12,406 nucleotides of DNA, taken from positions 1 to 12,406 of the forward strand of contig PSRF01000092.1 in the NCBI GenBank assembly GCA_003175865.1, read 5' to 3'. This document shows, piece after piece, positions 1-9,557 of the stretch; within the stretch, counting starts at the first letter, position 1; each line of letters begins with the position of its first letter. The DNA is from Blastocatellia bacterium (lineage in GTDB: Bacteria > Acidobacteriota > Blastocatellia > Pyrinomonadales > Pyrinomonadaceae). The notes beneath the pieces were generated by a model, which saw only the letters and a list, made by a program, of their open reading frames with translations, was not told where the DNA came from and did not search any database. The translations under genes and the position numbers were made by a program.

Positions 1-1569
1 CACTACAAGCGAAGCAGGCACACTCGAGTTATGTTGGGTTGGACTCGTCAGATTTTCTGGACCGGGCGCACCTAAACGCTGTCCCGCTCCAGCTGAAGTT
101 CCAATCGTATCGACAAAGATAAAGTCAGCAGCGTTGTTGTTAGTGTCCTGAACCGCACCGCCATTGGGACACTGCCCCATCGTTGTAATCGATCCACCCT
201 TGCCACACATATCGCGATAGAACGAATAATTGATTGAGAGCGGCGTCAGGGCTGGATAACCTGTGCCCTCTTTGTACAGCGTGTTCGCTTCGCTCGTTGA
301 ACCAACGGCGTCGAGTCGATTCGCTAGAGTGAAACTGGCGCCTCCAGTGGAGTTGTTGAAGAGAGCTATACCAGCGTTATCGGGAATGTCGGTGGTATAA
401 GTCGCGTCGCCAGTCGCTGTTGTCCCGTCACCAGCTGGGTAGGCGTCGTAAGCGTAACCAACTGAGTTCACACACAAGTAATGACCAGCAGTGGGTATGA
501 CGGTGCCGTTCGGTACGACACAACGAATAACACCATCAGATGCTGCGAGGGCTAAACCGGAAGACGCATCTGCAGCCTCAACAGTCAAAGGAGATCCAGT
601 CGTGTTATAGAACTCGACGAACTCGTCACTCGCGCCGTTCGGGCCGCGCAAACGAAACTCAGAAATGATTAGCTGACCCGTTGTTGTTGGTGGATTGAAT
701 TCCGTGATATCGAGTGAGACGCCGCCGGCGATAATACCTCCGTTGCCGTCAGTGTCGTCGGTGATGTACAGATTCCACGTTCCATTCGCTTGTGCAGCAG
801 TTAATCCATGAAAAACGCTTGTGAATGTAGCGGCACCCGCCGGGGCAGGTTCACTAAAGGACGCTGGTGCAGGACTCGGAAACGTATCCTGGTTTGTATC
901 GGCGTTGAATGGTTGATAGGTACCACTCGTGAGTGGTCCATCATCTGGAAGCGGCGTGGCACCGCTGTCTGACACGGTGATCGTCAGGTCGGAAACTGCG
1001 TTAGCGCCCCCAACATCAGACCAGAAGTGAAAAGCCTGACCTGATGGCGCAACCAACAACATGTCGAGATCGTCGACATTGTCATGAGTTAGATTGTTAA
1101 TAGTCACAGTAACTGTGTCAACGCTACCGGTTAATCCGAACACATCAATTTCTACCGGATATGGCAATGCAGGTTGTGGATCCGATGTATTGACCGGATC
1201 CATCTGAATAGATGAAGGGTTCGAAAACGACGAAAGCGGTGCTACTTGACGCAACTCCGGCATTATATGAACGCTGGGAGTTCTTGCGGCTCTGGATCTG
1301 GGCCGGGCGGGTGCCGTGATTTGTGTTGGTCTAGCAACCGCTGTTGCGGGATCAGGCGTCGTGAAAGGCGCCAAGACGAGTGTTGGGGCGGAAGTGTTCT
1401 GTTTTTTCTTCTTCGGTTTTTTTGAGCGGCGCGACTTGATGTTTCGGTTTGAATCAATTTGTGCTCGTGAGGAGTTGTTATTTGCAAATACTGCAACTGG
1501 TGAAAGCACCATTATGGCGGCGAGCAACATACAAACACAGTTCGCGAGCCTCGCTGACTTGCGCATCAT
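1..1569 (-). CDS. Secreted protein with P-domain-like and lamin-tail domains (C-terminus beyond the window)
   Basis: The frame stays open for 523 codons from ATG at 1569 to the left edge, so the C-terminus is missing. Residues 1-29 form a signal peptide with a hydrophobic core and an AVFA^N-like cleavage site, so the product is exported. A Lys/Arg-rich patch (about 45-57) and a Pro/Thr/Ala linker follow. Residues about 136-290 resemble the proprotein-convertase P domain, with the typical NGTWNLYITDD near 262-272. From about 299 (LIISEFRLRGP) there is a lamin-tail domain with conserved DEFVEFYN. Lamin-tail domains in bacteria occur on secreted or surface proteins; the exact role is unknown. 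It is a paralogue of the gene at 1860-3380, nearly identical over stretches such as the TSEANTLYKEGTGYPALTP block. Two ATGs stand in tandem (1569 and 1566); AGGAG lies 3 and 6 nt before them, so 1566 may be the real start. Confidence 0.88.
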   Translation of the reverse strand, partial: MMRKSARLANCVCMLLAAIMVLSPVAVFANNNSSRAQIDSNRNIKSRRSKKPKKKKQNTSAPTLVLAPFTTPDPATAVARPTQITAPARPRSRAARTPSVHIMPELRQVAPLSSFSNPSSIQMDPVNTSDPQPALPYPVEIDVFGLTGSVDTVTVTINNLTHDNVDDLDMLLVAPSGQAFHFWSDVGGANAVSDLTITVSDSGATPLPDDGPLTSGTYQPFNADTNQDTFPSPAPASFSEPAPAGAATFTSVFHGLTAAQANGTWNLYITDDTDGNGGIIAGGVSLDITEFNPPTTTGQLIISEFRLRGPNGASDEFVEFYNTTGSPLTVEAADASSGLALAASDGVIRCVVPNGTVIPTAGHYLCVNSVGYAYDAYPAGDGTTATGDATYTTDIPDNAGIALFNNSTGGASFTLANRLDAVGSTSEANTLYKEGTGYPALTPLSINYSFYRDMCGKGGSITTMGQCPNGGAVQDTNNNAADFIFVDTIGTSAGAGQRLGAPGPENLTSPTQHNSSVPASLVV

Positions 1570-1859: not shown

Positions 1860-3380
1860 TTATGGTAGCGACTCGACATTTATATAAAACTTGAAGCTAC
1901 CGGTCTGTTGAATTCCAAGCAAAAATCGAACGTCGAGCGATGCACCATTGGCAAGTGGCGTCCCTAACGTTACGGTGCCGGAGGACATCGATGAGTTGAA
2001 ACCTCCACCGTTTGGCTGGCTGGGAGGTTGCTCAAGAGTCGTACCTTGAACTGTGATGTTGCTCGTCCCCGATCCACACGGCGGTCGATCAACTGTAACG
2101 ACCACTGCAGTCGAAGTTCGTGGTCGTAAATCGGCAATGCCACTTGGCGCAGGGAAGGTAGTCAGATCGATTACACGCCATCGGAGGCGCGTCACGTTAC
2201 CGCCAGTGTTATTTGTGACTGTTCTGCGAATATCCAGCGTACCGAATGTTGAATTATTGGGTGGATCTGAAGTGAAATCGCGAACGCGATTCGGTGGGCT
2301 TGCAGCAGCAACACAAGTATCCAACAGGTTAACGGCAAATGAAGGGTTACGCTGGATAGGAGACGACAGGTTCTCCGGCCCCGGTGCGCCCAAGCGCTGA
2401 CCAGCACCTGCTGAGGTGCCATTCGTATCGACAAAAATGAAGTCCGCGGCGTTGTTGTTTGTATCTTTCGGAGTGCTTATCGTACATTGCCCGAATGTCG
2501 TGATAGAACCACCTTTCCCACAGGTATCTCGATAGAATGAGTAATCGATGGAAAAGGGTGTCAACGCCGGATAGCCCGTTCCCTCCTTGTAGAGGGTATT
2601 GGCTTCGGAAGTGGAACCGACGGCATCCATTCTATTCGCCAAGTTAAAATTAGCGGCGATGGAGGTATTAAAGATGGCAATGCCGGCGTTATCCGGAATG
2701 TCTGTTGTATATGTCGCGTCGCCGGTGGCAGTTGTACCGTTTCCAGCGGGATAAGAGGCAAGGCTGTACGCAAGGCTGTTGACGCACAGGTAATGTCCTC
2801 TATTTGGAATTACAGTGCCGTTAGGAATGACACAACGGGCAGCACCGTCAGAAGCGGCTATCGCATAGCCTGTACCCCCTCCTGCCACAGTGTGATCGGC
2901 ACCACTATTGTTATAGATTTCAATGAATTCATCGTTCATTCCGCTCGGGCCCCGCAGCCGAAACTCGGAGATAATCAGTCCACTCGGAGATGGGCCACTA
3001 GGTCCCGGTACAGTAGCAGGCAAAGTATGAACCCCGATTACTTTTGTGGCTCTTGATGAATTTTTTGGTGTTTCAACTGGGGTTGTGGGAGCTACATCCA
3101 CTGATTCCATGATGACTGGAGTGGTTGGAGCCGTCGCAGTAGCTGGGCTGCTCTGCGTCGGTGCACTCAATATGACGTACGGAAAATTGGTATTAGAGTT
3201 GTTCTTCTTTCGCCTTTTTGAACCCCGCTTCGTCTTTGTTGCTGTCCTGTCAGCATTACTTCCATTACTTCCATTCTGTTCCTGGAAGCTGCCGTTACGT
3301 GCGAAGCCAGCAGCTGAAAAGATCAAAATAATCGCAACTCCAGCTATAAGACTGGCCGAGGGTCGAACTGTTTGTTGCAT
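1860..3380 (-). CDS. Secreted lamin-tail domain protein
   Basis: 506 residues. The start is ATG at 3380 because AAGGAG (3388-3393) lies 7 nt upstream and a clean signal peptide follows (hydrophobic core about 10-25, cleavage near GFA^R at 27). The frame extends 39 nt further upstream, but that part has no ribosome site and would spoil the signal peptide. After export come an Asn/Ser/Gly linker and a basic patch (KRGSKRRKK, about 51-59), then a Thr/Pro-rich stretch. The lamin-tail domain starts near 134 (GLIISEFRLRGP) and has DEFIEIYNN. The C-terminal part, about 330-506, looks like a beta-sandwich with no recognisable catalytic motif. The paralogue at 1-1569 shares most of the lamin-tail region but has an extra P-domain-like module that is absent here. 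Function unknown; a surface or adhesive role is only a guess. Confidence 0.9.
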   Translation of the reverse strand: MQQTVRPSASLIAGVAIILIFSAAGFARNGSFQEQNGSNGSNADRTATKTKRGSKRRKKNNSNTNFPYVILSAPTQSSPATATAPTTPVIMESVDVAPTTPVETPKNSSRATKVIGVHTLPATVPGPSGPSPSGLIISEFRLRGPSGMNDEFIEIYNNSGADHTVAGGGTGYAIAASDGAARCVIPNGTVIPNRGHYLCVNSLAYSLASYPAGNGTTATGDATYTTDIPDNAGIAIFNTSIAANFNLANRMDAVGSTSEANTLYKEGTGYPALTPFSIDYSFYRDTCGKGGSITTFGQCTISTPKDTNNNAADFIFVDTNGTSAGAGQRLGAPGPENLSSPIQRNPSFAVNLLDTCVAAASPPNRVRDFTSDPPNNSTFGTLDIRRTVTNNTGGNVTRLRWRVIDLTTFPAPSGIADLRPRTSTAVVVTVDRPPCGSGTSNITVQGTTLEQPPSQPNGGGFNSSMSSGTVTLGTPLANGASLDVRFLLGIQQTGSFKFYINVESLP

Positions 3381-3387
3381 GTTTTTT

Positions 3388-3393
3388 CTCCTT
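3388..3393 (-). promoter_or_regulatory. Ribosome binding site AAGGAG deciding the start at 3380
   Basis: AAGGAG on the minus strand sits 7 nt before the ATG at 3380. It supports this start over the upstream in-frame one at 3419. Confidence 0.8.
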
Positions 3394-3394
3394 A

Positions 3395-3407
3395 GGTTGG
3401 TCCAACC
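3395..3407. promoter_or_regulatory. Perfect 13-bp palindrome next to the ribosome site
   Basis: GGTTGG-T-CCAACC is a perfect odd palindrome one base upstream of the AAGGAG of the 3380 gene. It could be an operator half of a pair with the palindrome at 3414-3426, or fold as a 5-bp RNA hairpin that affects ribosome access. No known regulator is recognised. Confidence 0.45.
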
Positions 3408-3413
3408 GGGCTG

Positions 3414-3426
3414 GCCCACTGTGGGC
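3414..3426. promoter_or_regulatory. Second perfect 13-bp palindrome at the predicted transcription start
   Basis: GCCCAC-T-GTGGGC lies 5 nt downstream of the predicted -10 (3432-3437), so it overlaps the expected transcription start. Its centre is 19 bp from that of the palindrome at 3395-3407. Position fits an operator; the sequence differs from its neighbour, so two sites of one factor are not assured. Confidence 0.42.
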
Positions 3427-3495: not shown

Positions 3496-4398
3496 TTAAC
3501 GATCGCGTGTCTCGACAGGTTGAACTGATTGTCTTAGCTTCGCAGCGACTCGATCCCAGTTGACAAACACCAGGTAGGAAATCAGGAAGTATGGAAAGAA
3601 CACATTCATCACCGGCAAAGTTGTGAGATGAAAGACAACTCCGAACCCAAGAATCCACCAACGAATTCGTCGAAAGAGAACTGTTAACGGAAAGAGCAGC
3701 TCCCACAACAGAACAACACCAACAATGTACGGTAGAAGCCAACGCACTTGCGGCAGCAGGAAGGCCAAACGGAAGTTTGTGTCATGCAAGTTGTCGAGTG
3801 AGTGATAAATCGCCAGCGTCGGTAGGTTGTCCACTGCGAAGTATTTGAGGCCGGCCACACGTAACTTCACGAGTGCAGAACTGAAGTAAGCCCAGGCCAG
3901 GAGAAGCTGCATTAACAAGATCGGATATGAATAAACAAATGACGATGACTTTGGGGATTTTCTTTCGGACCATCTATCGAGTGAAAACGAGTCACCGCAC
4001 GGACTAAACGCAAGCACGCATAAAAAGTAGACTCCGATCATCTCATCGTGATTAAAGTGGCCAAAACTTCGCACCAATCCTTCATAGAAGACTACAAACA
4101 GGAAAGAAACCTTCGTAGTTAACGAAGTCAGATAACCAGCCGTGCTTAGCAGCAACGAGAGAATCATGACCCACTTGAGAACGGTCATGGTAGCTGGGTT
4201 CAATAACTGGTCATAAAAACTCCAGGGCAATAACTTCATGGCCCCCACTGGACGAAGAATTGTCGTAGGTAACTGACCGAGATCTGAAAAGGAGGTGACA
4301 AGAATCGTGATCAGGAAAGCGCCGTGCATGACGGAACGCATGATGCCAAGCGACAACGCACTCCCAGGCACGATGCGGTTTACAATTCTTTGCGCCAC
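3496..4398 (-). CDS. HTTM-type (vitamin K-dependent carboxylase-like) integral membrane protein
   Basis: 300 residues with several strongly hydrophobic segments (roughly 20-38, 72-92, 95-110, 118-133, 158-176, 220-241, 246-263, 264-280). The layout resembles HTTM/DoxX-like proteins. Family-like marks are HFNHDE (114-119) before a helix ending AFSPC, then AYFSSALVKL (170-179), and WELLFPLTVLFRRIRWW (232-248) followed by a helix carrying H257. Eukaryotic relatives carboxylate glutamate; bacterial HTTM proteins are mostly of unknown activity. It is the last gene of the operon that begins with the RiPP-like precursor, and its GTG start overlaps the preceding gene by 19 nt, so translation is probably coupled. 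It may modify, cleave or move the matured peptide at the membrane; this is inference. A later ATG (M20 or M24) would cut into the first hydrophobic segment. Confidence 0.85.
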   Translation of the reverse strand: MAQRIVNRIVPGSALSLGIMRSVMHGAFLITILVTSFSDLGQLPTTILRPVGAMKLLPWSFYDQLLNPATMTVLKWVMILSLLLSTAGYLTSLTTKVSFLFVVFYEGLVRSFGHFNHDEMIGVYFLCVLAFSPCGDSFSLDRWSERKSPKSSSFVYSYPILLMQLLLAWAYFSSALVKLRVAGLKYFAVDNLPTLAIYHSLDNLHDTNFRLAFLLPQVRWLLPYIVGVVLLWELLFPLTVLFRRIRWWILGFGVVFHLTTLPVMNVFFPYFLISYLVFVNWDRVAAKLRQSVQPVETRDR

Positions 4399-4928
4399 GA
4401 TTCTATGAATTTGTCGAAGCGGTTGTAATCGCCACTTTCCCAGCGATACATATCAAGCCGAATTGCGCGCAGACGGTTTGGCGAGTCTGCCGGTTGGCGC
4501 TCGTTGTATATCTGGCCCCACGCCTGAAGGAGATCTGACATACGTGCGCCGGCTGGAAGCGCATCGAGCCCGCCGACCTGCAAAAGCAGGTGCTCGTTAT
4601 CTGGGTGAAGAGTCGAGAGTTTGAAGTTGTCGTTGTTCGCCGTCGCAGCGACCAACCCCCATGTACGTCCGTACAGGGCATTCGTCAGCTTTGCGCCTCG
4701 AATATCGACAGTGTTACCGCCGACTGTCTCGCCTCGCAGGATGAAGTACGTGCGACTGCGTTGAAGTTCCCCACCAGCCTGCATCATGTTCCAAACTGCA
4801 ACGGGATAAGTGTTCGTCACACGCACAAACGCTACTAGCAACGGGAGGAAGATGGCCACCGTTAAGACTGCGTACTGAACAATGAAACGAAACTCAGAAG
4901 TATGATGTTGTTCGGACTGAGAAGCCAC
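4380..4928 (-). CDS. Single-pass membrane protein of unknown function, partner of the HTTM protein
   Basis: 182 residues, GTG start 3 nt after the stop codon of the PqqD-like gene, end overlapping the HTTM gene by 19 nt. A hydrophilic N-terminus rich in His/Gln/Ser is followed by one membrane helix at about 18-36. The remaining 145 residues are soluble, probably outside the cytoplasm given the single anchor, with a Trp-rich end (W137, W163, W178). I see no catalytic motif and do not recognise the family. Small single-pass proteins are often encoded beside HTTM proteins, so a two-protein membrane unit is plausible. The tight spacing on both sides puts it within the peptide-modification operon. 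Confidence 0.78.
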   Translation of the reverse strand: MASQSEQHHTSEFRFIVQYAVLTVAIFLPLLVAFVRVTNTYPVAVWNMMQAGGELQRSRTYFILRGETVGGNTVDIRGAKLTNALYGRTWGLVAATANNDNFKLSTLHPDNEHLLLQVGGLDALPAGARMSDLLQAWGQIYNERQPADSPNRLRAIRLDMYRWESGDYNRFDKFIESWRKEL

Positions 4929-4931
4929 AAG

Positions 4932-5204
4932 CTATTCAGATGTGACGAGTTTGTAGGATTGAAAGTTTCCCAGCAGTTTTTCGACACTGCGCTTCGCGTG
5001 GTCGAGGCTTATTTCATATTCCGTCGTAACCTGCCCGACGATTTCGTCCACTGTCTTGCCCTGTTCCAATCCTTTCCAAACCAGCATTGCAGTTTCGTTT
5101 AACTGGTAGTACTTCTTTGTGTTCAGATCGACAAGAATGCCTTCCGTACCATCGAAGTCAGTGAACACTATGTGCTTGCCGGGAAGAATACTTGTTGAAT
5201 TCAC
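4932..5204 (-). CDS. PqqD-like peptide chaperone (RiPP recognition element)
   Basis: 90 residues, the usual length of a stand-alone PqqD-type protein. The fold signature is visible: an N-terminal beta strand region ending in ILVDLNTKKYYQLNETA (23-39), then helices MLVWKGLEQGKTVDEIV (40-56), and a C-terminal helical part covering TEYEISLDHAKRSVEKLL (61-78). PqqD-type proteins bind the leader of a ribosomal peptide and present it to a modifying enzyme, often a radical SAM protein. Here the radical SAM gene is two genes upstream and the proposed precursor heads the same operon. The start is GTG; 6 nt separate it from the TAA of the sulfotransferase-like gene. No other start leaves the first strand intact. 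Confidence 0.88.
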   Translation of the reverse strand: MNSTSILPGKHIVFTDFDGTEGILVDLNTKKYYQLNETAMLVWKGLEQGKTVDEIVGQVTTEYEISLDHAKRSVEKLLGNFQSYKLVTSE

Positions 5205-5210
5205 TTTAAT

Positions 5211-6206
5211 TTACCAACCTTTATCAACCTGCGCCTCTGTTTGTTCGAGAACGTCATAGGCGCGAACGGCCCATTGTTCCACTAGATCCCTAACAAGTTT
5301 TGTGGCAGACCTGCGCTTCATATCTGAGTCATTTACGAACGATAGTGATTGTGAAGCATCCTTTGAGTAAACTGCCGTAGCTCTTTGTATCGCGTCAGCT
5401 TCTTCTCGAGACGCTTCGACGTTGAAAAATTCTAACGCGCTGAGAATTCTTGATGTCGATAACCGGCGGTAATTAAGCAACAGCGATCGGTCGTTAGCAA
5501 GCTGTTGCGCCGCCGAATAGAAACTTGCGATGGATCTTACACAAAGTTCCTCATCTGACATCGTTCGAATCGTGTCGATGGAAACACCTATGATCGCTGC
5601 AAGCACGCGTCGGTCGGGATCCAAAAGCCACTCCGGTTTTGTTGTCAGGTTTGACACTGCAGTTTCAACCGGATCGCGATAGAGAAATACGCACGGGACA
5701 TTAGGCCATATACGGCGAATGCGTTGCACCTGACTTGTACTACAACAGGACCACTTCACAAACAGACGTCGCTCGTCGCCTGTTCGTCTTTGACCAAAAG
5801 CACTAACAACAGCTCGAAGAATGACTGAATAAATACTCTCCTTACCTGCATCTGTCATAAGGCGAACCACCAACTTGTCGATTGCACTCGCTTCAGACAC
5901 AACGATTGCGTCTTTGATGCAACGGAGTGCATTCGAAATTAGGGTTGAACCGCACCGCGATGAATGAAAAATAAACCCATCTGGCTTGATAGTTTCTGCT
6001 AGTTTTTCAAGTTGCAGGGCTGCATCAAAATCGCTGAACCATTCAATAGGCTTGGGCTGTTTCGTGCGAAGACGTTCGACGGTTTGCTGAAAAAAAGGTT
6101 CGGAAAACTCTTCACCATTCGCGTTCATCCATAACAAGCCAGGCCGCCCTTCCGACACCACGGCATCAATGGGCACCCATCCCTTTAGGTTTTGAACGTC
6201 AACCAT
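5211..6206 (-). CDS. Sulfotransferase-like protein
   Basis: 331 residues from ATG at 6206, 4 nt after the radical SAM stop. The frame runs 54 codons further upstream, but that part overlaps the radical SAM gene and is basic and unlike the family, so I reject it. FIFHSSRCGSTL (78-89) matches the 5'-phosphosulfate loop of PAPS-dependent sulfotransferases, and FLYRDPVETAVS (174-185) matches the 3'-phosphate site with R177 and S185. These enzymes move sulfate from PAPS to a hydroxyl or amine. The proposed precursor has no tyrosine, so the acceptor would be Ser/Thr, a modified residue, or another molecule. Related sulfotransferase-like genes occur in some RiPP clusters next to kinases. Catalytic activity is not proven, since many family members are uncharacterised. 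Confidence 0.85.
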   Translation of the reverse strand: MVDVQNLKGWVPIDAVVSEGRPGLLWMNANGEEFSEPFFQQTVERLRTKQPKPIEWFSDFDAALQLEKLAETIKPDGFIFHSSRCGSTLISNALRCIKDAIVVSEASAIDKLVVRLMTDAGKESIYSVILRAVVSAFGQRRTGDERRLFVKWSCCSTSQVQRIRRIWPNVPCVFLYRDPVETAVSNLTTKPEWLLDPDRRVLAAIIGVSIDTIRTMSDEELCVRSIASFYSAAQQLANDRSLLLNYRRLSTSRILSALEFFNVEASREEADAIQRATAVYSKDASQSLSFVNDSDMKRRSATKLVRDLVEQWAVRAYDVLEQTEAQVDKGW

Positions 6207-6210
6207 GATT

Positions 6211-7290
6211 TCAGTGAATACTGTTGAAGACAGGCAAGCTGCGGATTCCTGGTTCCTCAGTATCTGTCGAATTGTGCCAGGGAACCTTGGTGAACGAATG
6301 CAAACAAAAGAGACACGGAGACCCGGTGAAGAGATCTGGAGTAACACCCTCCGCTTGCATCGTCGCAAGTCTGTTGATCCGCTTTTGATGTTGGGCTAAC
6401 GACAGGTCCTGCATTTTTTGGTGGGCTTCAACGAACGGCTCAACATTCAAATCCGCAACAACATCTGTCTCATCAGTGCCATTTCGAAAGCCCGACAAAT
6501 TGCAGCAAAGCGAGAGACGTCCTCGATAGTCGATATTCATACTCGTTCCGGCCAAAGGGGAACACGGAGGTTGCGCATCGATGTTGTAGTACCCGACGTC
6601 AATCGCGACGTTCATCTTGAAGATCCGCGACAATACAGCGACTTCTTCTTCGACAAGTCTGCGCTCGTCAAGAGCTAGAGAAGTGTTGTCTATTTCAGCG
6701 GAAGTTGGCATCGTGTGAACAAAGTGAAGTGCATTTGCCCCCATGCGAGCCGCGAAAATCGCGATCTGTTCCAGTTGGTCAGAGTTGTCGCGACGAACCA
6801 CGACCTTGATTGCAAAGGGCAAGCTCGAGAAATGACAACGCGCAAACGCGCGTACCAGTCGATCAAACGAACCGCCACCTCGCCAGCGATCATTTTCCTC
6901 ACGCGTGATCCCGTCCAAACTGAATGCGACATGGGTCACGGAATCACGATGAGCCGCAATAGCCGGCCACACTCTTTCGAAATGCCAACCATTCGTCACA
7001 AAACTGGACTTCATACCTGACTCAGCAACAGCCGATAGTACGGTCTCAAATTCTGGATGCAGAGTCGGTTCCCCACCTGTAAAAATGACACGTGTTGTAC
7101 CAGCAACCCGCTTCGCATCAGACAAAACTTTCCTTAGCACTGGGACGGAAAGGAATTCTGGTTTTGAATTGTACAGAGCGTCTTCGGCGCGAAAACAGTA
7201 GCTACAGTGCAGGTTGCAGATGTTGACGAGTTCGATAGTGAGGCGTTGAGGTCCGTAATCGTTAGTGAAGGCTGTTTCAGAGTGAATCAT
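6211..7290 (-). CDS. Radical SAM peptide-modifying enzyme with SPASM-like C-terminal cysteines
   Basis: 359 residues. ATG at 7290 overlaps the TGA of the kinase-like gene (ATGA); the frame extends upstream to 7329, inside that gene, without a ribosome site. CNLHCSYC at 25-32 is the CxxxCxxC that binds the SAM-cleaving iron-sulfur cluster, and TGGEP (71-75) contacts SAM. The core barrel covers about 14-235. Beyond it C243, C262, C263, C326 and C329 suggest one or two auxiliary clusters, as in SPASM or twitch-type enzymes that modify peptides or proteins; NIDYRGRLSLCC (252-263) fits the usual glycine-before-cysteine pattern. With a PqqD-like protein and a putative precursor in the operon, it probably installs a carbon-centred change such as a crosslink or epimerisation. 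A thioether to Cys is excluded because the precursor has no Cys. Confidence 0.93.
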   Translation of the reverse strand: MIHSETAFTNDYGPQRLTIELVNICNLHCSYCFRAEDALYNSKPEFLSVPVLRKVLSDAKRVAGTTRVIFTGGEPTLHPEFETVLSAVAESGMKSSFVTNGWHFERVWPAIAAHRDSVTHVAFSLDGITREENDRWRGGGSFDRLVRAFARCHFSSLPFAIKVVVRRDNSDQLEQIAIFAARMGANALHFVHTMPTSAEIDNTSLALDERRLVEEEVAVLSRIFKMNVAIDVGYYNIDAQPPCSPLAGTSMNIDYRGRLSLCCNLSGFRNGTDETDVVADLNVEPFVEAHQKMQDLSLAQHQKRINRLATMQAEGVTPDLFTGSPCLFCLHSFTKVPWHNSTDTEEPGIRSLPVFNSIH

Positions 7291-8303
7291 GGACTTTCGA
7301 TGTAAGGGCGAAACAGCAAGTCGGCGCAACGTGGAACAAGTAAATCACTTCCGGCTTCGAGATCGAATGATCTGCATTGGTGCGCAAGTCGTGACAGAAC
7401 TTGTAGATTGTCAGCTGCGATGTCTCTGTCGTAAGTGGCCCACGGACACGCACGTAGCAAACGGATCATCGATTCGGTTTTCGTCAGTTCAGTGAGGTGA
7501 GTTTGTGCCTTATGGGCAACACTTGTAAAGAAAAGAAAACGAGCTGCAGCAGTGTGCGCCTGTTCCGAGGCGAATATAGACCGTGGCTCGAAGCAAGCTT
7601 TTAGAGCAGCAGGCTGAATCGCTGCCGCTCCCTCCAACTCTGCAAGACCCGTCGCAATCATTGCATCAGTTGATAACGCAAAAAAGCTTCTGAATCCACG
7701 CGCGAGGACCTGATCATCTTCGATGCTCAATAAAATCTCGTCATCGGACAGGTACCCCCAGCCTGCGGCGACTAGCTGTGTAGTTAGAGTCGATTTTCCA
7801 CTACCGGATGGGCCAATTATCAAAACACCTGACGACGAACCTGGAGCGAGCACGCCTGCACCATGAACGTCAAACACCCCGTGACGTCGTAGTCCAGCAC
7901 ACACAGCAAACGAGACGGCCCTCGCAAGACTAGCATTAACAGTTTCCGGAATTTGTCTGAACCAAATCTCGATCTTAACTGGAGCTGAGGATGACAGCTG
8001 AAGAAGTGAGTTTCCGAGATCGAGATAAAAGCCCTCCTTAACAGGATAGCAACGCGCCTGTTCTGCAATCTCAAACTCATCGAGACCAAACGGAACTTCA
8101 GGGGGCTGTCGAGTACAACGGCAACTGATCAGGACGTCAGGGCGTTGATTGGTTGACTCGACTCTTGCCAAAAGCCAACCGGCAAACAACTGTTCCAATA
8201 GGCCAGACAAAACTGATTCATCACTGTCAACAAAAACAAACCGACCGGCAACCGTATAACAACGACGGTTTGCCGGTCGGTCCAAATCTCTAACAGCTTT
8301 CAT
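7287..8303 (-). CDS. HPr kinase/phosphorylase-like P-loop protein
   Basis: 338 residues, ATG start 15 nt after the precursor stop. GPSGSGKS (164-171) is a Walker A loop in the HprK style, preceded by DVHGAGVLAPG (145-155) as in HprK-related proteins. YLSDDE (184-189) fits the acidic Walker B position. Relatives that accompany PqqD and nucleotidyltransferase genes occur in lasso-peptide clusters, where kinases of this fold phosphorylate the C-terminal serine of the precursor (the paeninodin type). Here the precursor ends in a Ser/Thr-rich tail, so phosphorylation of that tail is a reasonable guess. The N-terminal domain (1-140) is not the usual HprK one. A strong hairpin lies in codons 8-22 (see 8240-8281). 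The ribosome site before the ATG is weak. Confidence 0.88.
   Translation of the reverse strand: MKAVRDLDRPANRRCYTVAGRFVFVDSDESVLSGLLEQLFAGWLLARVESTNQRPDVLISCRCTRQPPEVPFGLDEFEIAEQARCYPVKEGFYLDLGNSLLQLSSSAPVKIEIWFRQIPETVNASLARAVSFAVCAGLRRHGVFDVHGAGVLAPGSSSGVLIIGPSGSGKSTLTTQLVAAGWGYLSDDEILLSIEDDQVLARGFRSFFALSTDAMIATGLAELEGAAAIQPAALKACFEPRSIFASEQAHTAAARFLFFTSVAHKAQTHLTELTKTESMIRLLRACPWATYDRDIAADNLQVLSRLAHQCRSFDLEAGSDLLVPRCADLLFRPYIESP
8240..8281 (-). promoter_or_regulatory. Strong hairpin plus U-rich tract: possible attenuator inside the kinase gene
   Basis: On the transcript CCGACCGGCAAACCG (8280-8266) pairs with CGGTTGCCGGTCGG (8254-8241), with one bulged A and one more A-T pair at the base, around an 11-nt loop. 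It is followed directly by TTTGTTTTTG, as in an intrinsic terminator. It lies 38 nt after the precursor stop but within codons 8-22 of the kinase gene. CGGTTGC also occurs just before the kinase ATG (8304-8310), so the first arm could pair there instead. Confidence 0.55.
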
Positions 8304-8318
8304 GCAACCGGAAAGCGC

Positions 8319-8492
8319 CTAGTTTGTCGAGCCGCTACTTGCTGCCTGAAAGAAGGTTGTTGCCTCTAAGACATCAACAGGAACGGATATTGTAGGCTCA
8401 ACAAACGGCTTCTTTGCCGCTCCTATTGCTTCTTCGGTTTCTGACTGCGTTATTGATTGCTCTGACTTAAGAATTTCATTTTTTGTGGACAA
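8319..8492 (-). CDS. Putative RiPP precursor peptide (57 aa, TTG start)
   Basis: A 57-residue gene starting with TTG at 8492, with a perfect AGGAGG 9 nt upstream; stop TAG 15 nt before the kinase gene. Residues 1-27 are polar and acidic (leader-like). KPFVEPTISVPVDVLEATT (28-46) resembles the [YF]xxPxl...D-V/L...T segment by which PqqD-type proteins grip many lasso and radical-SAM RiPP precursors. The tail FFQAASSGSTN (47-57) has two Phe and four Ser/Thr, and is the likely core. There is no Cys, Tyr, Trp or Met after the start, which excludes lanthionine and Cys-thioether chemistry and direct Tyr sulfation. It heads an operon of kinase, radical SAM, sulfotransferase and PqqD-like genes. Upstream codons are closed by a stop at 8523-8525, and there is no in-frame ATG. 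The core boundary and the modifications are inferred. Confidence 0.83.
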   Translation of the reverse strand: MSTKNEILKSEQSITQSETEEAIGAAKKPFVEPTISVPVDVLEATTFFQAASSGSTN

Positions 8493-8501
8493 AGTTTTGC
8501 G

Positions 8502-8507
8502 CCTCCT
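8502..8507 (-). promoter_or_regulatory. Perfect Shine-Dalgarno AGGAGG of the precursor gene
   Basis: AGGAGG on the minus strand with a 9-nt spacer to TTG at 8492. It is the strongest ribosome site in the window, fitting a peptide made in excess over its enzymes. Confidence 0.85.
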
Positions 8508-8524: not shown

Positions 8525-8553
8525 ATATTAAGTTCTGAAATGAAACGTGGCAA
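8525..8553 (-). promoter_or_regulatory. Predicted promoter of the RiPP-like operon
   Basis: TTGCCA (8548-8553) and TAATAT (8525-8530) are exactly 17 nt apart on the minus strand, in the 105-nt gap between the STN-domain gene and the precursor. Transcription would start near 8518, giving a leader of about 25 nt that contains the AGGAGG. Confidence 0.6.
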
Positions 8554-8597: not shown

Positions 8598-9458
8598 CTA
8601 GAAGCTCTGCGGTTTGTTCTTGGACGGCTCGCCCAATACTAGCCGAAGAGCTCTTCTTTCTGCTCGTTGCAAATCTGCGCGCATGAAAACTGTGATCTTC
8701 GGTGAAAGATGACGTAGCGCCTCTTCCACGGGAAGTTTGTTAATCTCGGTGTCGACTATGTCTGTAGATTCAGACTCGATATCAACCGGAATACCGAGTT
8801 CCTCTCCAATCTTCAACAAAACCAAAGATAACGGCTGTTTTTTCGCCTTGATGCTGAGGCTGTTGTCTTTGAATTGAACACGTAGAGGCTGTTCCTCAAG
8901 GCGTTTCCTCTGTTCGTCAGTGGTTGGCTCAACGCCATCCTCGGTATCGCCTTCGATCAGGAGCGATTGCGTACTGCCACCGGCGACAGCAGTATCCGAC
9001 GGTTCTCCATCAACAGGATAAAAGAAGATACCCAGCGTTTTTACCGGCCCGGTCGACGAAGTGTTGAATTGATAATCGATATAGACTTCGGGCGCCATCA
9101 ACTGCATTGCCGGTTCCAAAGTGAGCTCGCTGTATTCGATGGTGATTAATTGTTTCGCCAGAACGGGCGCCACCATCACAGTCGTTTTCAATTGCTTTGA
9201 CAACGACTCCGCAACCTCTGAAAGGTTTGCCTTCTCCGCCTTCAACGAGATATTGAGAATAGGTTTCGCTTTAACGGTCAAGGTAAATGAAGGTTTAGCA
9301 TTTGCAGATGAAGCTTGAGACTTATTGCCTGATTCTTTTGCAGCTTCAGTGTTGGCCTGGGACTGTTGCGCGGAAACGACGGGGAAGAGCAGCAGACTTA
9401 CTATGAACGCACTCAAAACTTCGCGGCAAAAACGCGCGCAGATAAAAGCTCGTATCAA
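8598..9458 (-). CDS. Exported protein with two STN/secretin-N-like modules
   Basis: 286 residues from TTG at 9458: AAGGAA lies 9 nt upstream, and the start gives a normal signal peptide (core about 14-29, VSA^QQ at 30). The frame runs back to another TTG at 9557, but that TTG belongs to the -35 box of the predicted promoter, and the extra 33 residues would be a poor N-terminus. A Gln/Ser/Ala linker (31-56) follows. Two regions, about 68-130 (ISLKAEKANLSEVAESLSKQL) and 200-277 (LSIKAKKQPLSLVLLKIGEEL), have the beta-alpha-beta pattern of STN domains found at the N-terminus of secretins and TonB receptors. No pore or plug domain follows, so it is a free periplasmic protein. Whether it serves the neighbouring peptide operon is unknown. 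Confidence 0.82.
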   Translation of the reverse strand: MIRAFICARFCREVLSAFIVSLLLFPVVSAQQSQANTEAAKESGNKSQASSANAKPSFTLTVKAKPILNISLKAEKANLSEVAESLSKQLKTTVMVAPVLAKQLITIEYSELTLEPAMQLMAPEVYIDYQFNTSSTGPVKTLGIFFYPVDGEPSDTAVAGGSTQSLLIEGDTEDGVEPTTDEQRKRLEEQPLRVQFKDNSLSIKAKKQPLSLVLLKIGEELGIPVDIESESTDIVDTEINKLPVEEALRHLSPKITVFMRADLQRAERRALRLVLGEPSKNKPQSF

Positions 9459-9467
9459 GTTTAGATT

Positions 9468-9473
9468 TTCCTT
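9468..9473 (-). promoter_or_regulatory. Ribosome binding site AAGGAA supporting the TTG start at 9458
   Basis: AAGGAA on the minus strand, 9 nt before TTG at 9458. No comparable site precedes the upstream TTG at 9557. Confidence 0.7.
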
Positions 9474-9528
9474 ATCCGGTTGAAGGGCGTGTTTCTTGGC
9501 GACTGACCTGTGCCACACGAGACGGCTG

Positions 9529-9557
9529 AAACTAGCACGTCGCTCCAAATCCGTCAA
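9529..9557 (-). promoter_or_regulatory. Predicted promoter of the STN-domain gene
   Basis: TTGACG (9552-9557) and TAGTTT (9529-9534) are 17 nt apart, with TG one base before the -10 (TGCTAG). The -10 hexamer is identical to that of the promoter at 1635-1663. A 7-bp A/T-rich hairpin (9558-9577) lies directly upstream and might weakly stop transcription from the nucleotidyltransferase gene. Confidence 0.55.

Follow-up and report, generated by a model that had tools for sequence, protein, structure and literature searches.

What does a 57-aa reading frame that begins with TTG and stands in front of a group of modifying enzymes encode in an acidobacterium? Acidobacteriota are common in soil and mostly uncultured. 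The DNA analysed here (the window) is a stretch of 12,406 nucleotides, contig PSRF01000092.1, from a Blastocatellia bacterium of the family Pyrinomonadaceae, and all genes located in it below lie on the minus strand. An initial annotation, made from the letters alone, had read the frame at 8319..8492 as a RiPP precursor recognised by a PqqD-like protein. With its TTG start codon at 8492-8490 and an AGGAGG ribosome site 9 nt before it (8502..8507), the frame was found as described there, and it consists of a leader (residues 1-46) and a predicted core (residues 47-57, FFQAASSGSTN). Its place directly upstream of kinase, radical SAM, sulfotransferase and PqqD-like genes, in this order, was confirmed as well, with 15 nt between the frame and the HprK-like kinase gene. 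The promoter that had also been proposed stood only in part. The TTGCCA-17-TAATAT element (8525..8553) agrees with the consensus at 9 of 12 positions, which taken alone is chance level (1 found against 0.9 expected), but similar hexamers (TTGCCA/TTGCAA-17/18-TATATT) were seen by eye at the same place in six of nine aligned upstream regions of precursor genes.

To find homologues in other genomes, as the initial annotation had suggested, we searched with the 57 residues and obtained 839 database proteins at E<=1; the best among the 120 matches listed was 75% identical over the full length. A profile of 30 rows recovered 3817 of 4231 candidates at E<=0.01. Within the taxonomic family, the single-sequence search matched 24 of 119 genomes. 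The match in G075 (E 0.009) was discarded as chance, having no locus gene adjoining and not being recovered by the profile, and 23 genomes remained, the window's own included. The profile added three genomes of the class outside the family (G488, G501, G502), giving 26 of 162. Most of the loci compared share the gene order NTP5-STN-precursor-HprK-rSAM-(SulT)-PqqD, with exceptions. In the precursor segment from -19 to +2, mean pS was 0.79 and pN 0.16 (pN/pS 0.20; 28 sequences in frame, the same motif-picked precursors as used for the start-codon counts below), while in the two other frames pN exceeded pS (19 and 11 stop-free sequences). Lack of conservation in homologous operons and lack of selection on the protein had been named beforehand as findings that would speak against the precursor, and neither was seen. 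That the frame is spurious could be argued from its shortness, its non-ATG start and the lack of any Pfam or NCBIfam family over cut-off, but the conservation and the codon pattern refute this, and judged by its sequence the frame is a real gene. The sole Pfam match was sub-threshold (0.056), and the lantibiotic identity that it offered was rejected. What was found, a short conserved frame beside an RRE and modifying enzymes, is what is looked for in a RiPP precursor.

Among the 28 precursors the start codons were TTG (22), GTG (3) and ATG (3), and in 27 of them the ribosome site matched AGGAGG at 5-6 of its 6 positions; these sequences were picked by motif and their starts by the best ribosome-site score, so both counts lean that way. 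With starts so chosen, a non-ATG start is conserved in 25 of 28 homologues, hinting at a controlled low translation. The first residue is L in 53 of the 215 precursor-family proteins retrieved, which we take as the mark of a called non-ATG start. The gene had been described as unlisted and easy for gene callers to miss. The former may hold for this contig, but homologues stand in the databases as 'hypothetical protein'; the latter is only partly right, because gene finders do call those homologues.

The leader was compared with those of lasso peptides. F30, P33, L42, T45 and F47 are invariant in the 30-row alignment, and when residue 47 is taken as core +1, F30 falls on -17, P33 on -14, I35 on -12 and T45 on -2. 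According to the available part of PMC10368454, lasso leaders carry YxxPxL at -17 to -12 and usually Thr at -2. The precursor leader fits this register as F(-17), P(-14), I/V(-12) and T(-2), with Phe replacing the usual Tyr/Trp at -17. The pattern F-x2-P-x-[IV]-x9-T-T occurred in all 215 retrieved proteins, which are the best-scoring matches and thus a biased sample. In G502 the core is different, with F, P, V and T(-2) retained. Seven lasso-type loci of the same or related genomes were inspected, and five of them gave eight lasso-type precursors, of which KKPYTSPTVTVLGDIEAITQ, for example, aligns ungapped with KKPFVEPTISVPVDVLEATT. All eight align to the family leader without gaps, with Thr at -2 in five and Ile/Val in three; the comparison of the two profiles was weak (probability 0.5%, E 0.11) yet found the exact register. 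L093, L094, L095, L097 and L098, from the same or related genomes, look like lasso loci and contain precursors as well as B2 and Asn_synthase genes. The segment FVEP...DVLEATT, which the initial annotation had likened to the recognition segment of PqqD-bound precursors, thus resembles the leader motifs that lasso B1-type RREs bind. The PqqD-like protein (4932..5204) points the same way: its match to the lasso PqqD model NF033530 (3.7e-13) is below the model's cut-off, and its three PDB matches at E<=0.01 are all lasso B1 proteins (9x90, TbiB1 and TfuB1). Together with the conserved frame and operon and the purifying selection, the leader motif favours, as the best reading of the sequence, what was first proposed: a RiPP precursor that the PqqD-like protein recognises. 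The lasso register, the B2 peptidase clade and the missing cyclase described below are additions to that proposal.

In relatives, a lasso-type peptidase also appears to belong to the system. The B2 peptidase domain PF13471 was detected in 28 of 29 genomes, the exception being the window's genome, which is 62% complete and whose contig ends inside the island. In 13 loci B2 lies on the same stretch as the precursor, always downstream, on the opposite strand and 1.4-7 kb away; in G470 and G431 it lies 4-5 kb from the radical SAM gene on another contig. It was absent from the fetched precursor stretches of G025, G469:C235 and G482, and the remaining loci, the window's included, end too early to show it. 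A profile of this B2 clade matched 24 of 119 genomes. All precursor genomes but the incomplete one of the window are among them (22 of 23), as are two of the 96 others (G471 and G414; p 1e-20). The B2 copy of G428 looks truncated, and the profile match in G433 holds a stop. Two of the three B2 proteins tested pass the lasso_biosyn_B2 model (46.4 and 42.9 against a cut-off of 33), the third scoring 30.8. In the B2 tree, a branch with support 94/94 separates the B2 of precursor loci from all six lasso-locus B2 included, 'lasso' meaning here that Asn_synthase is close by. The proteins of G431, G429, G482, G426, G427, G025 and G385:C214 side with the precursor-locus B2, and those of G385:C152 and G275 with the lasso B2; G428, G460, G468, G470:C219, G472, G471 and G414 were left out of this tree, and G470:C117 was dropped, having no frame. 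A distant version of the system in G165, G096 and G063 combines B2, a KKVF(V/I)EPEL precursor, HprK, rSAM, PqqD and NTP5, and its B2 gene lies directly upstream of the KKVFVEPEL-type precursor (L053 ~11.7-12.3 kb, L054 ~11.8-12.5 kb, L055 ~12.0-12.6 kb).

The lasso ring requires Asp or Glu at core position 7-9, and the window core FFQAASSGSTN, which begins with Phe, has neither there nor anywhere else; 174 of the 215 retrieved cores are free of acids. The cyclase (Asn_synthase) was not found on the window contig. The search covered 18 of the 23 precursor genomes of the family, many of whose contigs are short, and gave no such gene close to the locus; it shared the precursor contig only in G466 and G025, at least 350 kb away. 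In G063, of another family, an Asn_synthase gene lies ~12 kb from the locus. These observations bear on an alternative, a normal phosphorylated lasso peptide with its cyclase gene at another site in the genome. The leader register, the B1- and B2-like proteins, HprK and the nucleotidyltransferase are all as in phosphorylated lasso clusters, and Asn_synthase genes occur somewhere in all 21 genomes searched. The distance of these genes and the acid-free cores argue against it, and we consider this reading very improbable. Since no cyclase was seen near the locus in the genomes searched and the window core has no ring-forming acid, the precursor appears to work like a lasso precursor without being one. 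We therefore think, with a probability of roughly three in four, that the gene encodes the precursor of a RiPP sharing the targeting system of lasso peptides but lacking their ring.

The modifying enzymes suggest what the product may be instead. The HprK-like kinase (7287..8303) matches Hpr_kinase_C (2.9e-6) and HprK_rel_A (9e-12), both below cut-off. HprK homologues phosphorylate a core Ser in lasso peptides and in the linear polyphosphorylated peptides (LPP) of Popov et al. 2026, as stated in the available parts of PMC10368454, PMC8498205 and PMC13381572, and by analogy the kinase here would be expected to phosphorylate the core. An NTP_transf_5 nucleotidyltransferase (PF14907, 9586..10752, 1.7e-62) is a conserved neighbour of the precursor; hexoses are added by a nucleotidyltransferase in pseudomycoidin, as given in the accessible text of PMC8498205.

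The radical SAM enzyme (6211..7329 from the first in-frame start, though it may begin later) has a CxxxCxxC motif and a C-terminal Cys set, the latter seen in the nine sequences compared. Among PDB structures, its relatives at E<=1e-8 are PqqE and SkfB, and the models nearest to it, none of them over cut-off, include the maturases of the tungsten cofactor, mycofactocin and PQQ. The gene tracks the precursor, being present in 21 of 23 precursor genomes versus 1 of 96 others; four of 24 radical SAM matches hold a stop. No match at E<=1e-60 was found in G433 and G482, nor was a radical SAM gene present in the stretches retrieved for G501 and G502. The FF at the core start is kept in G433, G482 and G501, and thus is not explained by this enzyme. 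Beside PqqD in G502 there is a JmjC gene (PF08007, 5e-26), with no radical SAM gene on that contig; by locus, JmjC genes adjoin PqqD at L052 (13751-15079) and L145 (3238-4524), the L145 contig having no radical SAM gene.

PqqA and MftA are peptides from which small redox cofactors are made, and the precursor might serve as such a source. A radical SAM enzyme next to PqqD, the cofactor maturases among the nearest models and a core that hardly varies in close homologues (67 of the 215 cores, which fall into 43 types, are FFQAATSGATN) would suit this. The core end varies among genera, however, none of the 215 cores contains Tyr, Trp or Cys, and the distribution is patchy, with 23 of 119 genomes; we regard a cofactor source as very doubtful. 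Two precursor genes with different cores were found within one locus in L050 (G477) and L049 (G025).

A sulfotransferase (5211..6368 from the first in-frame start, possibly beginning later) is present in only some loci, namely six of the 22 compared. None of these six has an acid in the core, whereas all 16 loci without the enzyme have at least one precursor with an acid; in G025 the kinase-adjacent core has no acid and that of the second precursor has one. Placed on the tree, the association amounts to one independent pair on supported branches and two on all branches, and with so few independent events it is not established. In SG-type cores, position 6 is Ser or Thr in 6/6 with the sulfotransferase and in 1/9 without, a count that leaves out nine cores without SG, all from loci without the enzyme. 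A Fisher test of the sulfotransferase against acid gave p 0.0014, before allowing for the tree. We tentatively suggest, as a possibility short of an even chance, that Acidobacteriota have an undescribed RiPP family whose lasso B1/B2 leader handling has come to serve a radical SAM enzyme, a kinase and, optionally, a sulfotransferase, and whose core position 6 would bear a negative charge, supplied by Asp/Glu or, in loci with the sulfotransferase, by sulfated Ser/Thr.

Several other genes belong to the island. Between the precursor and the nucleotidyltransferase lies a protein with a hydrophobic N-terminus, judged by eye (8598..9557); two of its domains weakly resemble secretin N0/STN, and no fold match was obtained at E<=0.001. 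Downstream of PqqD, a 182-aa protein with an N-terminal helix and no family match (4380..4928) overlaps the gene of an HTTM-domain membrane protein (3496..4398, 1.4e-7), and this pair (3496-4928) accompanies the locus in several genomes. SdpA/SdpB is a known HTTM pair. This identity was considered for the two genes, the arrangement being alike, and was not adopted: there was no NCBIfam match, and the predicted structure of the 182-aa protein was a poor model. Near the island end lies a lamin-tail-domain protein (1860..3419; domain match below cut-off), and a second such match (4..729) is in a frame that runs off the contig end. Copies of the complete lamin-tail protein in G025 and G466 share 82-90% identity with it along about 370-400 aa, far above the identity of the enzymes, and loci contain 0-3 copies. 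A PHROGs search with three proteins gave no match. In six of 13 genomes an ABC exporter gene (PF00664) lies 11-17 kb upstream of the precursor: 11.5-12.3 kb, on the opposite strand and at nearly the same distance in G476-G480, and 16.5 kb in G430. It was not near the locus in the other seven, and it is possibly the exporter of the system or just a shared neighbour.

Taking the enzymes together, the product is most likely a peptide that is phosphorylated, modified by the radical SAM enzyme and, in this locus, perhaps sulfated; the LPP family of 2026 comes nearest to it. The RRE would grip FVEPxI and present the C-terminal part of the precursor, on which the HprK-like kinase would phosphorylate core Ser/Thr, perhaps with further elaboration by the nucleotidyltransferase. 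The radical SAM enzyme would alter the core and the sulfotransferase would add sulfate to it, and the B2 peptidase would cut after TT(-1) and release the modified 11-residue core. The HTTM, 182-aa and STN-like proteins may, as a guess, handle the product. If this is right, lasso leader recognition and cleavage form a portable module that serves chemistry other than the lasso ring.

The closest known systems share parts of this locus. As described in the available portion of PMC13381572, LPP clusters have the same kit of a discrete RRE, an HprK-like kinase, an NTP transferase, a [Y/W]xxP-type leader and no macrolactam cyclase. The locus could then be a close analogue or a member of LPP, with the radical SAM enzyme acting on something else; the precursors that persist where this enzyme is absent fit such a view, as does the exporter gene upstream in six of 13 genomes, an MsbA-like exporter being part of LPP clusters. 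The LPP clusters are reported there as restricted to Bacillota and use an SpI-like signal peptidase, whereas the peptidase here (in relatives) is a B2-type cysteine peptidase, in Acidobacteriota. An archaeal-type signal peptidase (TIGR02228) was over cut-off in none of 13 genomes, its sub-threshold matches not being near the locus. The LPP consensus in that text, YxxPxVLxHQxIxFETxxS, is not matched by FVEPxISVPVDVLEATTFFQ, and a radical SAM enzyme that tracks the precursor, and sometimes a sulfotransferase, are found here. This reading is accordingly unlikely in our view, though less so than an ordinary lasso peptide, and we prefer a separate RiPP with lasso-type targeting. SynChlorMet and HprK-rel-A cassettes (NCBIfam) are matched weakly by the HprK-like and PqqD-like proteins, and SynChlorMet also by the radical SAM protein, all below cut-offs. 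Titles and abstract openings of the open-access literature did not describe the precursor family, which may figure as an unnamed cluster in surveys of radical SAM RiPPs. The accessible text on RRE-Finder (PMC7470986) mentions about 300 'false positives', lasso-model RREs co-occurring with radical SAM enzymes, and the locus is of this kind, with a lasso-model RRE beside such an enzyme; that text names no precursor, peptidase or kinase for the 'false positives'. With the phosphorylated lasso peptides Bsf (PMC10368454), paeninodin and pseudomycoidin (PMC8498205) it shares, as far as the available parts of these sources go, the leader motif at -17 to -12, B1, B2, the kinase and the nucleotidyltransferase, and some of those clusters also carry sulfotransferase genes. 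It differs from them in its radical SAM enzyme, in the lack of a neighbouring cyclase gene and in a window core free of ring acids.
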